A stretch of DNA of 51,735 nt. Source: Pirellula sp. GTDB taxonomy: Bacteria > Planctomycetota > Planctomycetia > Pirellulales > Pirellulaceae. The position numbers and the translations under genes are program-made. This document shows, in pieces, positions 21,717 to 24,166 of this stretch; position 1 is the first letter of the stretch; every line of letters begins with the position of its first letter. Under the pieces are notes generated by a model that saw only the letters and a program-made list of their open reading frames with translations, did no database searches and was not told where the DNA came from. The stretch lies in assembly GCA_021736575.1 (NCBI GenBank), contig JAIPFP010000008.1, positions 1 through 51,735 of the forward strand, given 5' to 3'.

Positions 21717-22289
21717 TCAGTACAACCGAACCATCCTGCGGAATCCAAGTACTCTTAGTACGCACCACCAAGTGCGCCTTTTTTTCGGTAGCTTCGTTCG
21801 ATCGCTCCAGCTACCAAAGTCCCAACCGAGTCGAACAAACCGAATGCAAAGGGAGCGGGACTTGCACGCGAATCCCATTGTCTCCCAAGTTGCAAGCTGA
21901 ATCGCCATCTGGACGCATTCGTCTTGTGCGGCTGTGTCTGCGACCTCCCTCCGATTTAACCATTCGGCGAACAAGAGAGAATCCCTGACGATCGCATTCT
22001 TTCCGTTGACATGATTTCGCTCAGCGTATTGGCGGAACAATGGTCCGAAACGCGATCCCAGTGTTTCCGCTGTCAGCGGCATGTGATGCCTGGTCTGTGA
22101 GATCCTCTTTCGAATCAAGGTTTCGCGACTCCTCGCCAAGTCCTCATCGCTCGGAGAATTCACCGGCAATGTTGAATTTCCCGGCAGAACTGGATTGGCA
22201 TCTTCCGGGATTGAGCTGTCTGTGGAATCGGTCAAGCGTTTCGCTACATAGGTTTGCAAGCGTAGTAGTTGGTCCTTCTCGGATTCCAT
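21717..22289 (-). CDS. Small partner protein of the DUF692 enzyme
   Basis: 190 residues from ATG 22289, four bases after the DUF692 stop. The N-terminal part is acidic and low in complexity. The middle (about 65-115) holds a helical block with RETLIRKRISQTRHHMPLTA and LGSRFGPLFRQYAERN. From memory, similar RxxLARKR...LG.rF.plFr.YA blocks occur in small proteins next to DUF692 enzymes, where a partner binds the precursor or substrate. The C-terminal 40 residues are Arg/Trp-rich and unlike the rest. Probably a substrate-recognition or chaperone partner; this comes from gene context and is not proven. Confidence 0.65.
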   Translation of the reverse strand: MESEKDQLLRLQTYVAKRLTDSTDSSIPEDANPVLPGNSTLPVNSPSDEDLARSRETLIRKRISQTRHHMPLTAETLGSRFGPLFRQYAERNHVNGKNAIVRDSLLFAEWLNRREVADTAAQDECVQMAIQLATWETMGFACKSRSLCIRFVRLGWDFGSWSDRTKLPKKRRTWWCVLRVLGFRRMVRLY

Positions 22290-22293
22290 TGCA

Positions 22294-23157
22294 TTAGGTT
22301 TCGACAAAATCGCGATTCATGATTTCCCGCATGTTAGCCAATTCGGTGAGGATGTCCGAAAACGGAGGAAGCTGTTCATCGCGTTCCAGAATCGCACCGC
22401 AAACCGGTGCATAGCGAACGACTTCCTCCAATAACTGCCAAATTTCTAAGTTGGTCGCATGGCTATGCCCATCGATGAGCAGATCACCTTCACGATCGAA
22501 TCCGACGAAATGCAATTGTACAATTCGATCGCGCGGCAATCGATTTAAAACTTGAACCGCATCAAATCGATAGTTTATCGAATTGATATAGAGGTTGGTG
22601 ACGTCCAGAAGTAAGCCGCAATTGTTTTCGTTCAACACTTCGCCAAGAAACGAAGCTTCGTCGAAAGTGTCATTTTCGTACTCAATCGATTGGGTAATGT
22701 TTTCGAGGATCAACGGTGCCCCAATCTCCGACGTCGCAACGCGAATGTTTTCTTTCAGGCACCTTAGTGTCGCCTTCGTTTTCGGTAAAGCGGTGAGATG
22801 TCCAATATCGATCCCACCCACTCGGCAGAATGAGATATGTTCGCTCCACCAGGCTGGCTGAACTGTTTCAACCACACGTTTGAGCATATTGAGATAGCCT
22901 CGATCTAGTCCATCGGCGCTCCCAAGCGAGAGCCCTAGCCCGTGCGGTATGAGAGGGAAGCGACTCGCGAGCAACTTCAAAAGTTCATTGGATTCCGGTT
23001 TCGGATCAAAGAAGTGATCTGCGGTAATCTCCAGAAAATCAATTTGGTTCGCGTTGCGAAAGACATCGGTACGAACCGCATCGCGATATCCCAATCCCAC
23101 GCCGAGTCGAGGCAGCTCACTCTTGCCGAGGGTGACTTTGCGCTGTCTAGCCGCCAC
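22294..23157 (-). CDS. DUF692-family iron enzyme (MbnB/BufB/TglH-like)
   Basis: 287 residues. The frame is open to 23349, but that upstream part is antisense Gly/Cys-codon sequence. I start at GTG 23157, which has GGAGG five bases upstream and overlaps the preceding stop by 11 bases. The TIM-barrel begins ELPRLGVGLGYRD. Likely metal ligands: His72 (LIPHGLGLS), Glu106/His107 (WWSEHISFC), Glu152/Asn153 (LILENITQS), Asp185 and Asn188 (LLDVTNLYIN), His216 (QLHFVG), Asp229/His231 (IDGHSH) and Glu258. Characterised relatives use two or three irons and oxygen to modify cysteines of ribosomal peptides. Here the probable substrate is the Cys-rich tail encoded just upstream. Confidence 0.9.
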   Translation of the reverse strand: MAARQRKVTLGKSELPRLGVGLGYRDAVRTDVFRNANQIDFLEITADHFFDPKPESNELLKLLASRFPLIPHGLGLSLGSADGLDRGYLNMLKRVVETVQPAWWSEHISFCRVGGIDIGHLTALPKTKATLRCLKENIRVATSEIGAPLILENITQSIEYENDTFDEASFLGEVLNENNCGLLLDVTNLYINSINYRFDAVQVLNRLPRDRIVQLHFVGFDREGDLLIDGHSHATNLEIWQLLEEVVRYAPVCGAILERDEQLPPFSDILTELANMREIMNRDFVET

Positions 23158-24166
23158 AACCGCCTCCGCCACAACCGCCACAACCGCCCCCACCACCACA
23201 ACTCGCACCGCCGCAGCTCGCACCGCCGCCAGAACTTTCACCGCCGCCACAACTTGCTGCGGACGCTCCGGCGCAACCCGAGCCGCATCCGCCACCTGTT
23301 GTTTCTGCACGGAGATACATCTTTCGAAAGTCTTGAAAGGGGCCGCCATTCAAAGCTGCGACTCCGAAGATACCAACTGCCATCAGTGGAATCATGCTAG
23401 CCTGTTGGTCTCGCCCTACGGCGACTGCATTCGTATTGCTTTCCACGGAAAAGTCTCTGACGGCATGGCGATACTGTGCATTGATTAGTTGTACGCCGGA
23501 CAGATATTGGCGCCCCCTCGCGTTGAACCGACGGTGCGATCGCGTCAAAAGTAAACCCACCGATCCAATGATCATCATCAGCACTGCGAACCAGATGTTG
23601 TCCAAGTGCCTAAGGGTAGCGCTCACGATTTTAGTCAGTCCAGCTAAGAAAAAGAGTGTAGCCGAACCAACGGAAAAAAGGTTCAAGATAGACTGCTGCG
23701 ATGGAGCGATGCGGAATCCTTCTTGCTCGATCCATTCATCCCAACGCTCGAACTCGCTAACAAATTGACTAGCCACATTGGAACCGAAAATATCGGTTGG
23801 TTTGCGGGCTACAGAAAAAAAATCTGCGGCTTGTTTTGCAAAGGGGCTCAATGTTTTCGGAAGTTCTGCGTCGAGTTTCCGTTGCCATTGGACTGTCCTG
23901 AGAGTTTTTCCCTCTTCTTTTTGCAACAGGCCCTGAGAATAGAGTTCAAGTGTGGCCAACCGCAGTACTTCGTTTGCCCCACCTCTCAAATAGGCGATCT
24001 TGTACGGGTCCGGATCTGTTTCTGGAATGACTGGGGTGTCTGAACTTACTTGATCTGTTTGGTGACGGACGATCAAGCAAACTACAAAAAAAGCCACCCA
24101 AACGGTGGCATATGCAGCGAGAAACTCTGGGCCTTGCATGTGTGTAAACAACTGGAGCCATTGCAT
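23147..24166 (-). CDS. TIGR04222-type membrane protein with eight-cysteine Gly tail
   Basis: 339 residues; ATG 24166 has a strong GGAGGAGAGGAA upstream. A membrane helix at about 15-34 is followed by a soluble part opening with DPDPYKIAYLRGGANEVLRL, the hallmark I know for TIGR04222 proteins. Further hydrophobic segments lie at about 160-183, 190-208 and 256-272. The last 49 residues are almost only Gly, Ser, Ala and Cys, with eight cysteines at 294, 298, 306, 318, 323, 329, 332 and 337. Such tails are typical of the family, whose role is unknown. First gene of the minus-strand operon with DUF692 and a partner; the tail may be a modified, metal-binding or surface-linked module. Confidence 0.85.
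   Translation of the reverse strand: MQWLQLFTHMQGPEFLAAYATVWVAFFVVCLIVRHQTDQVSSDTPVIPETDPDPYKIAYLRGGANEVLRLATLELYSQGLLQKEEGKTLRTVQWQRKLDAELPKTLSPFAKQAADFFSVARKPTDIFGSNVASQFVSEFERWDEWIEQEGFRIAPSQQSILNLFSVGSATLFFLAGLTKIVSATLRHLDNIWFAVLMMIIGSVGLLLTRSHRRFNARGRQYLSGVQLINAQYRHAVRDFSVESNTNAVAVGRDQQASMIPLMAVGIFGVAALNGGPFQDFRKMYLRAETTGGGCGSGCAGASAASCGGGESSGGGASCGGASCGGGGGCGGCGGGGCGG

Follow-up and report, generated by a model that had tools for sequence, protein, structure and literature searches.

Can an MNIO, an enzyme of the DUF692 family, act on cysteines carried by a membrane protein? The question is raised by three adjacent genes on a contig from Pirellula sp. (JAIPFP010000008.1, positions 1 to 51,735); the whole of this 51,735-nucleotide stretch is referred to here as the window. 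The genes encode a membrane protein of the TIGR04222 family with a cysteine tail (gene 1), an MNIO (gene 2), and a small partner protein (gene 3). We put a probability of about 0.55 on the reading that the cassette oxidizes cysteines on the tail of the membrane protein, with the partner bringing a cytosol-facing tail to the MNIO. The original prediction from the sequence had also named the tail as the DUF692 substrate. This holds to the extent that the cassette is conserved and the tail is its natural candidate, but the link between tail and enzyme is not tight, with an MNIO adjoining only 15 of 46 Cys-tailed TIGR04222 proteins.

The cassette in the window and its relatives

The three genes form a tight operon on the minus strand with one start/stop overlap and one four-base gap, the latter between the stop of gene 2 and the ATG of gene 3 at 22289, as had been predicted (Table 1). 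The GTG start of gene 2 at 23157 is our choice; the longer start at 23349 given by the open reading frame (ORF) lister would cross the tail of gene 1 in another frame. The window genome (94.8% complete) has one TIGR04222 match and one MNIO match, both at this locus and side by side.

Three aligned MNIOs were used to scan genome contigs, and nine loci (L082-L090) were returned. In L082, where the MNIO is 92% identical, two tandem TIGR04222 genes are followed by the MNIO and the partner. The order TIGR04222-MNIO-partner was also found in L083, L084, L086, G373, and G107, and it is kept in L085, which is the same place as G107 in Candidatus Uabimicrobium amorphum. Because the order recurs in L082, L083, L084, and L086, the arrangement in the window is not due to chance. 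The Cys tail is kept in these same four loci with varying length. More distant MNIOs occur in L089 and L090. Both tandem TIGR04222 genes of L082 (2182-4740) are Cys-tailed, with tails of different length and one MNIO after them; in trees, the TIGR04222 protein and the MNIO of L084 group with Planctomycetota and Armatimonadota copies.

In the best tree of 42 MNIOs, those beside TIGR04222 genes made up three groups with three label changes. Two of the three changes are forced by starred branches, with gain and loss indistinguishable, and MNIOs on both sides of one starred branch adjoin Cys-tailed TIGR04222 genes.

Gene 2 encodes a complete MNIO. It matched PF05114 with 263.9 bits (gathering score 25), and its solved relatives by sequence are 3bww (E 1.2e-30), TglH, and MbnB. 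Its best NCBIfam match was the BufB model at 225.4 bits, which is below the BufB equivalog cut-off of 310. Ten polar residues are invariant across eight aligned MNIOs (H72, H107, E152, N153, D185, N188, H216, D229, H231, and E258), and we take the metal ligands to be among them. A complete DUF692 barrel with likely ligands was thus correctly foreseen.

The protein encoded by gene 1 matched TIGR04222.1 in a profile search with 69.4 bits (cut-off 43), and there was a weak match, under cut-off, to DUF2207_C (PF20990; E 4.8e-5). Counted from TTGGGC onward, the tail is 51 residues by direct translation and not 49 as first given; the count of eight Cys was right, and the rest of the protein has one Cys. 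The four hydrophobic segments reported earlier were recovered by a rough scan as three transmembrane (TM) segments, of which TM2 spans residues 163-179 and TM3 residues 191-207, and a shorter, weaker fourth.

Gene 3 matched nothing in Pfam or NCBIfam at E up to 1. The RxxLxRKR helical block described for it was found as RETLIRKR at residues 55-62. Its predicted model has a predicted local distance difference test score (pLDDT) of 71.3 (9 rows). Foldseek returned nothing below E 0.001 for this model; the top row was an unrelated human complex (E 0.12), and 3dee (E 1.2) and MbnC (E 1.6) were both above 1. The fold assignment relies on a second look with VIA-align over 652 aligned chains. In this, the TglHI entries 8hi7_A (Z 10.6, 174 aligned, root-mean-square deviation 4.4) and 8hci_A (Z 10.4) ranked first and second, followed by the DUF2063 protein 3dee (Z 9.0, 122 aligned) and MbnC 7dz9_C (Z 5.4, 136 aligned), with an unrelated row next at Z 4.2; a Z under about 13 can reflect a common arrangement for helical bundles. 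Sequence identity to the aligned known partners is 8-9%. We took chain A of 8hci to be TglI because chain D is the DUF692 enzyme. Because the first four ranks are all MNIO partners, we read gene 3 as having the MNIO-partner fold. On the predicted model it is a PME-type 2 partner, lacking the DUF2063 signature and having a fold like that of 3dee and TglI. A partner profile, in which some of the matching proteins are themselves included, matched 12 of 14 MNIO-linked TIGR04222 loci, the exceptions being G115 and G065. A partner-like stretch is joined to the end of the MNIO in G210 (by profile) and G115 (by eye).

Table 1. Positions of the cassette genes and of the segments of gene 1 in the window
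Feature	Positions	Strand	Remarks
Gene 1, TIGR04222 membrane protein, putative substrate	23147..24166	minus	339 aa
Gene 2, MNIO / DUF692 enzyme	22294..23157	minus	287 aa; GTG start overlaps gene 1 stop
Gene 3, MNIO partner, predicted PME-type 2 kind	21717..22289	minus	190 aa; ATG 22289
C-terminal Gly/Ser/Cys tail of gene 1	23150..23302	minus	aa 289-339, 51 aa, 8 Cys (direct translation)
TM1	24068..24118	minus	aa 17-33; read as N-out/C-in (rough hydropathy, charge counts)
TM2-TM3 hairpin	23546..23680	minus	aa 163-207 (rough hydropathy)
Fourth hydrophobic segment	23351..23392	minus	aa 259-272; short, weaker; decides the side of the tail

In G210, G108, G065, and L084, the TIGR04222 gene is directly preceded by a nucleotidyltransferase-like gene. 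A profile made from these four placed such a gene in G324 and G081 as well. The one copy scanned (L074) matched Polbeta and NTP_transf_2 under cut-off, with E of about 6e-4 and 7e-4. An apparently decayed locus in G081 (L079) has such a gene together with a cut, tail-less TIGR04222 frame and, by eye, a piece resembling the partner motif.

Cysteine tails with and without an MNIO neighbor

We searched 392 Planctomycetota, 291 Armatimonadota, and 387 Verrucomicrobiota genomes for TIGR04222 proteins. This gave 53 places over the cut-off (20 + 23 + 10), and the 48 with an intact end were counted. The five that were dropped are a fragment (G214:C243) and four that were truncated, contig-cut, or masked (G081, G437, G401, and G932). 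Loci L082-L085, found through their MNIOs, are outside the counts, except that L085 is G107 and was counted; L086 (G395) was counted. Neighbors were read over about 4-5 kb each way, less at contig ends.

A Cys tail (at least two Cys) was present in 46 of the 48 intact proteins, and 44 of these 46 have C[GSA]2C within the last 22 residues. An MNIO adjoins 15 of the 46 (eight in Planctomycetota, seven in Armatimonadota including G395, and none in Verrucomicrobiota), leaving 31 without an MNIO next door. Twenty-eight, none with an MNIO neighbor, are fused or adjacent to a second type of domain, here called GRDP-like, and three have neither, of which G006 is unsure since its contig is 3.8 kb. Within the stretches read, MNIO and GRDP-like domain occurred together at none of the 46 loci. 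The two Cys-less proteins are both paralogues; G107b stands alone and G609b is in an MNIO cassette in tandem with a Cys-tailed copy. The original prediction expected DUF692 genes more often beside Cys-tailed than beside tail-less proteins. This was not seen (15 of 46 compared with 1 of 2), in a comparison that has little power with 2 Cys-less proteins among 48 and with three phyla that do not include Actinomycetota, the main home of the family. Together, these data indicate that the Cys tail largely does not predict an MNIO neighbor in Planctomycetota, Armatimonadota, and Verrucomicrobiota.

Nine Cys-tailed Planctomycetota proteins have no MNIO neighbor. Five of their genomes have an MNIO elsewhere (G205, G381, G333, G087, and G359), so action at a distance is possible. 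The other four genomes (G352, G242, G324, and G006) gave no match to an MNIO anywhere, and tails of this type can therefore be present where an MNIO is lacking. A tblastn search of plasmids with two TIGR04222 cores gave no match.

The GRDP-like domain is about 130 residues long with invariant WHxH, C, and HH (29 sequences). Only 6 of the 29 matched PF07173 at E up to 10 (best E 0.0082), and four fused GRDP-TIGR04222 proteins had no PF07173 match at E up to 0.1. The label is a weak one, chosen because PF07173 was the most frequent Pfam match and one relative is so annotated, and the kinship of the bacterial domain with plant GRDP is not secure. Crov588, the only PDB sequence match under E 0.001 for this domain, spans 24 residues and was set aside.

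The tails of the GRDP-linked and MNIO-linked groups are alike, with means of 5.3 versus 6.0 Cys and 20.6 versus 18.4 Gly in the last 50 residues. In a tree of 53 TIGR04222 cores that included the MNIO-found L082, L083, and L084, the side with the window holds 17 MNIO rows and 4 rows with neither, and the other side holds 28 GRDP-like, 3 MNIO, and 1 neither; the split has support of 100/96. The MNIO/GRDP-like labels change three times. In this tree, contig-cut G437 was labeled as neither and G609b as MNIO. Because the contexts follow two branches with only three changes, the exclusion between MNIO and GRDP-like domain is largely ancestral. For the same reason the Fisher P of 1.6e-9, in which rows are treated as independent, overstates it. 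The MNIO-linked G409, G214, and G065 fall among GRDP-linked proteins, so that it looks as if an MNIO was recruited more than once, and there was apparent later replacement between the two contexts. Exclusion does not extend to whole genomes. In G396, one contig carries an MNIO with partner and another a GRDP-linked TIGR04222 protein; in G065, besides the MNIO-linked TIGR04222 protein, a GRDP-like gene at another place has a tail of its own. Our best reading of these patterns is that the MNIO and its partner replace the GRDP-like domain used elsewhere.

An independent profile search for the GRDP-like domain covered 279 Pseudomonadota and 236 Planctomycetota genomes. Seventeen matches reached at least 150 bits, including G205 and G087 from the TIGR04222 set. 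All 15 further strong genes are accompanied by a Cys/Gly tail, and 5 of the 15 are TIGR04222-linked. The tail is in the same frame in 12 (three of them TIGR04222 fusions), on a neighboring TIGR04222 gene in two, and only in another frame in one; some of these tails hold just two Cys. Among 20 weaker matches, the tail was in the same frame in four (L191-L194, with two Cys in L194) and on a separate downstream ORF in L215. The other 15 have no tail, and several of them end in short Cys-bearing stretches. L191-L194 are distant GRDP-like proteins of Pseudomonadota with the Cys/Gly tail at the end and, by eye, no evident TM segment. Two GRDP-like proteins of one planctomycete (L199 and L214 in G064, about 3 kb apart) have two hydrophobic segments, a stretch that looks by eye like a zinc ribbon, and a Cys/Gly tail.

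Plasmids gave 18 GRDP-like hits, of which six were read. A tail was present in Rhizobium gallicum (L174, with two TM segments by eye and no TIGR04222) and in Planktothrix (L178, with TIGR04222). Gloeothece (L173), with TIGR04222, has no more than a brief GGCGCGC at the end, Deinococcus (L175) shows one Cys and stretches of Gly/Asp, and the GRDP-like genes read in Halomonas (L176) and Nonomuraea (L177) have no tail.

In the model of one fusion protein (m78a497909572, residues 228-456), the TIGR04222 core resembles GOLPH3 (Foldseek E 0.015, probability 0.98). With VIA-align, GOLPH3 had a Z of 8.2 and Vps74 of 6.6, and two unrelated rows (7.5 and 7.4) ranked between them. The predicted core may be a domain of GPP34 type into which a TM hairpin has been inserted. 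There was no GPP34 family among the matches listed (25 of 28 Pfam families), and this hint was set aside.

Side of the membrane and alternative readings

In the mechanism that we favor, the TIGR04222 protein would sit in the inner membrane with its N-terminus outside and its middle domain in the cytoplasm; a hairpin of two TM segments would follow, and then the flexible Gly/Ser tail. The partner, built like the TglI and DUF2063 partners, would present the tail to a cytosolic MNIO, and the iron site of the MNIO would oxidize some of the tail cysteines, perhaps to thiooxazole-type groups by analogy with bufferins. The product would be a membrane-tethered tail of thiols and heterocycles that binds a soft metal such as copper. 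Metal binding by the modified tail is a guess, and copper is suggested only by analogy. Several other points also weigh against this proposal. Most Cys-tailed proteins are GRDP-linked with no MNIO neighbor, and four of the genomes with such a tail gave no MNIO match. The Foldseek matches of gene 3 to known partners are above E 1, and its VIA-align scores are in the range where helical bundles can share a common arrangement. Of two flanking genes scanned in the window, one encodes a PfkB-type kinase and one had no match, so the neighborhood hints nothing about metal handling. Lastly, the account of Antoine et al. (2025; PMC12452194) has the tail on the periplasmic side.

A different view, to which we assign a lesser but appreciable chance, is that the tail functions in its unmodified state or with some other factor acting on it, in most cases the GRDP-like domain, with plain thiols binding a metal or a partner. 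The MNIO would then be one of two alternative tail factors, and what it does may be optional. This would explain why the tails of both groups have similar Cys/Gly contents, why C[GSA]2C is so common near the end (44 of 46), why there are 28 GRDP-linked and 15 MNIO-linked loci with none having both and three neither, and why each of the 15 additional strong GRDP-like genes is accompanied by a Cys/Gly tail. The plant protein AtGRDP2 (PMC4299439) also has a Gly-rich C-terminal domain with interspersed Cys. However, an MNIO would hardly be kept beside the tail gene in several groups if it had no job on the tail, much of the exclusion is ancestry (three label changes), and the exclusion fails at the scale of whole genomes in G396 and G065. 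It is improbable, in our judgment, that the MNIO and partner act on another peptide with the TIGR04222 gene as a bystander or helper. In two Verrucomicrobia loci (L087 and L088), a related MNIO and partner do stand without a neighboring TIGR04222 gene, and a search for small Cys-rich ORFs near these orphan MNIOs found nothing convincing. On the other hand, the adjacency recurs in Planctomycetota and Armatimonadota, and the tail is an obvious Cys-rich candidate. The genome of L087 is G396, in which the GRDP-linked TIGR04222 gene is on another contig.

The remaining alternative, possible but well short of probable, is that the tail is exported and periplasmic, that the MNIO acts before the last TM segment inserts, and that the product is an anchored metal binder like a bufferin. 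This depends on the side of the membrane, on which AlphaFold was uninformative. We read the topology of 46 rows with a rough hydropathy script of our own; its windows were misplaced for G400, G946, and G878, where the profile match ended early, and in some fused rows (for example G491, G876, G888, and G396) its TM1 is the segment preceding TM1. Antoine et al. (2025; PMC12452194) favored a periplasmic tail from a topology prediction and their reading of AlphaFold models. The fourth segment also approaches a TM in part of the rows, and TM2 scarcely exceeds it in strength (medians of 1.8 for the fourth segment and 1.1 for TM2). In addition, the TM2-TM3 loop, which would be outside if the tail is cytosolic, has 2.4 Lys plus Arg in about 11 residues, contrary to a simple positive-inside rule. 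By contrast, the fourth segment is the weakest of the four, with 17% of rows below the hydropathy threshold compared with 98% for TM1, 46% for TM2, and 91% for TM3. The fused relatives have an extra hydrophobic segment between the GRDP-like domain and TM1, and in 15 of 18 the segment before TM1 holds a lipobox-like [LVIAFTMS][LVIASTGMF][GAS]C. With a cytosolic GRDP-like domain, TM1 would cross the membrane from outside to inside; the Lys plus Arg counts around TM1 and TM3 (0.6 before TM1, 2.6 after TM1, and 3.6 after TM3) agree with this. Some GRDP-like proteins have, by eye, two hydrophobic segments and then basic residues, and others have no such segment; both sorts bear this type of tail, in keeping with a cytosolic location. 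In addition, a cytosolic enzyme would hardly be expected to encounter a tail that is translocated cotranslationally. Because the fourth segment is weakest, TM1 reads as N-out, and GRDP-like proteins with two or no segments share the tail, we prefer a cytosolic tail over a periplasmic one at odds of about two to one.

A broader proposal goes beyond the reading that the cassette oxidizes the tail, and we consider it rather unlikely as it stands. A tail ending near CGGCGG may be a widespread cytosol-facing module on unrelated proteins (TIGR04222 proteins, two-TM proteins, soluble proteins, and perhaps plant GRDPs). It would normally be served by the GRDP-like domain as a hitherto unrecognized, metal-dependent maturase of the tail or a loader of metal, with invariant His, Cys, Asp, and Glu, and an MNIO with a TglI-like partner would substitute in the lineage of the window and apparently again elsewhere. 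If true, one kind of tail would have two unrelated types of enzyme that build or load it.

Comparison with known systems

The cassette is closest to the TIGR04222-MNIO clusters described by Antoine et al. (2025; PMC12452194). The main text of that paper treats these clusters as putative and mostly from Actinomycetota, with a Pirellula staleyi protein among its models, and proposes that some TIGR04222 proteins, those with Cys near the C-terminus, may serve as substrates of MNIOs with PME-type 2 partners, which lack a DUF2063 signature and have structural kinship to 3dee and TglI. In the same account, a third of genomes with TIGR04222 have no MNIO and more than a quarter of TIGR04222 proteins have no C-proximal Cys. 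Because this pairing had been put forward, the window cassette is a member of a kind already proposed, and the idea of a membrane-protein tail as DUF692 substrate, whose product the original prediction took to be of a new kind, had been published before. The likenesses are a TIGR04222 match over cut-off, a Gly/Ser tail with Cys, an adjacent MNIO, and a PME-type 2 partner; the difference is that the tail is placed in the periplasm there and is read as probably cytoplasmic here. Their 516-residue Pirellula example is about as long as the GRDP fusions found here (459-508 aa), a comparison by length only. That main text has no mention of GRDP, DUF1399, or glycine-rich proteins, and our literature search found no paper that joins MNIO with GRDP or DUF692 with DUF1399. 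Thus, the exchange of MNIO and GRDP-like domain on a shared kind of tail, which is correlational, was not found described.

Compared with bufferins (BufA/BufB/BufC), the MNIO of the window belongs to the same broad group, with BufB as the best NCBIfam model and a score below its cut-off (225.4 versus 310). The substrate of bufferin systems is a small Sec-exported peptide, whereas the candidate here is a membrane protein, and the three window genes have no DUF2282 or DUF2063 Pfam match at E up to 1. TglHI and MbnBC are similar in combining an MNIO with a helper; the predicted partner fold matches TglI and MbnC, and the enzyme matches TglH and MbnB. The substrates of TglHI and MbnBC are short peptides. 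The closest published membrane case that we saw is that of TMcins, ribosomally synthesized and post-translationally modified peptides with a TM helix in the precursor. If the tail is oxidized, the cassette would clearly exemplify the action of an MNIO on an integral membrane protein in place of a small peptide, which we have so far seen only as a proposal.

The same kind of Cys/Gly tail stands beside two unrelated modules, and therefore we suggest that both act on the tail. This also suggests a shared function for the tail, which may lie in metal or redox handling. The plant protein AtGRDP2 resembles the bacterial set in having an N-terminal DUF1399 and a C-terminal Gly-rich region with Cys, for which the consensus [CG]GGGCGG[GC] is given, and differs in that the portions of PMC4299439 that we drew on mention no TIGR04222 domain. 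The GRDP-like alternative offers a starting point for testing a domain that may also occur in plants.

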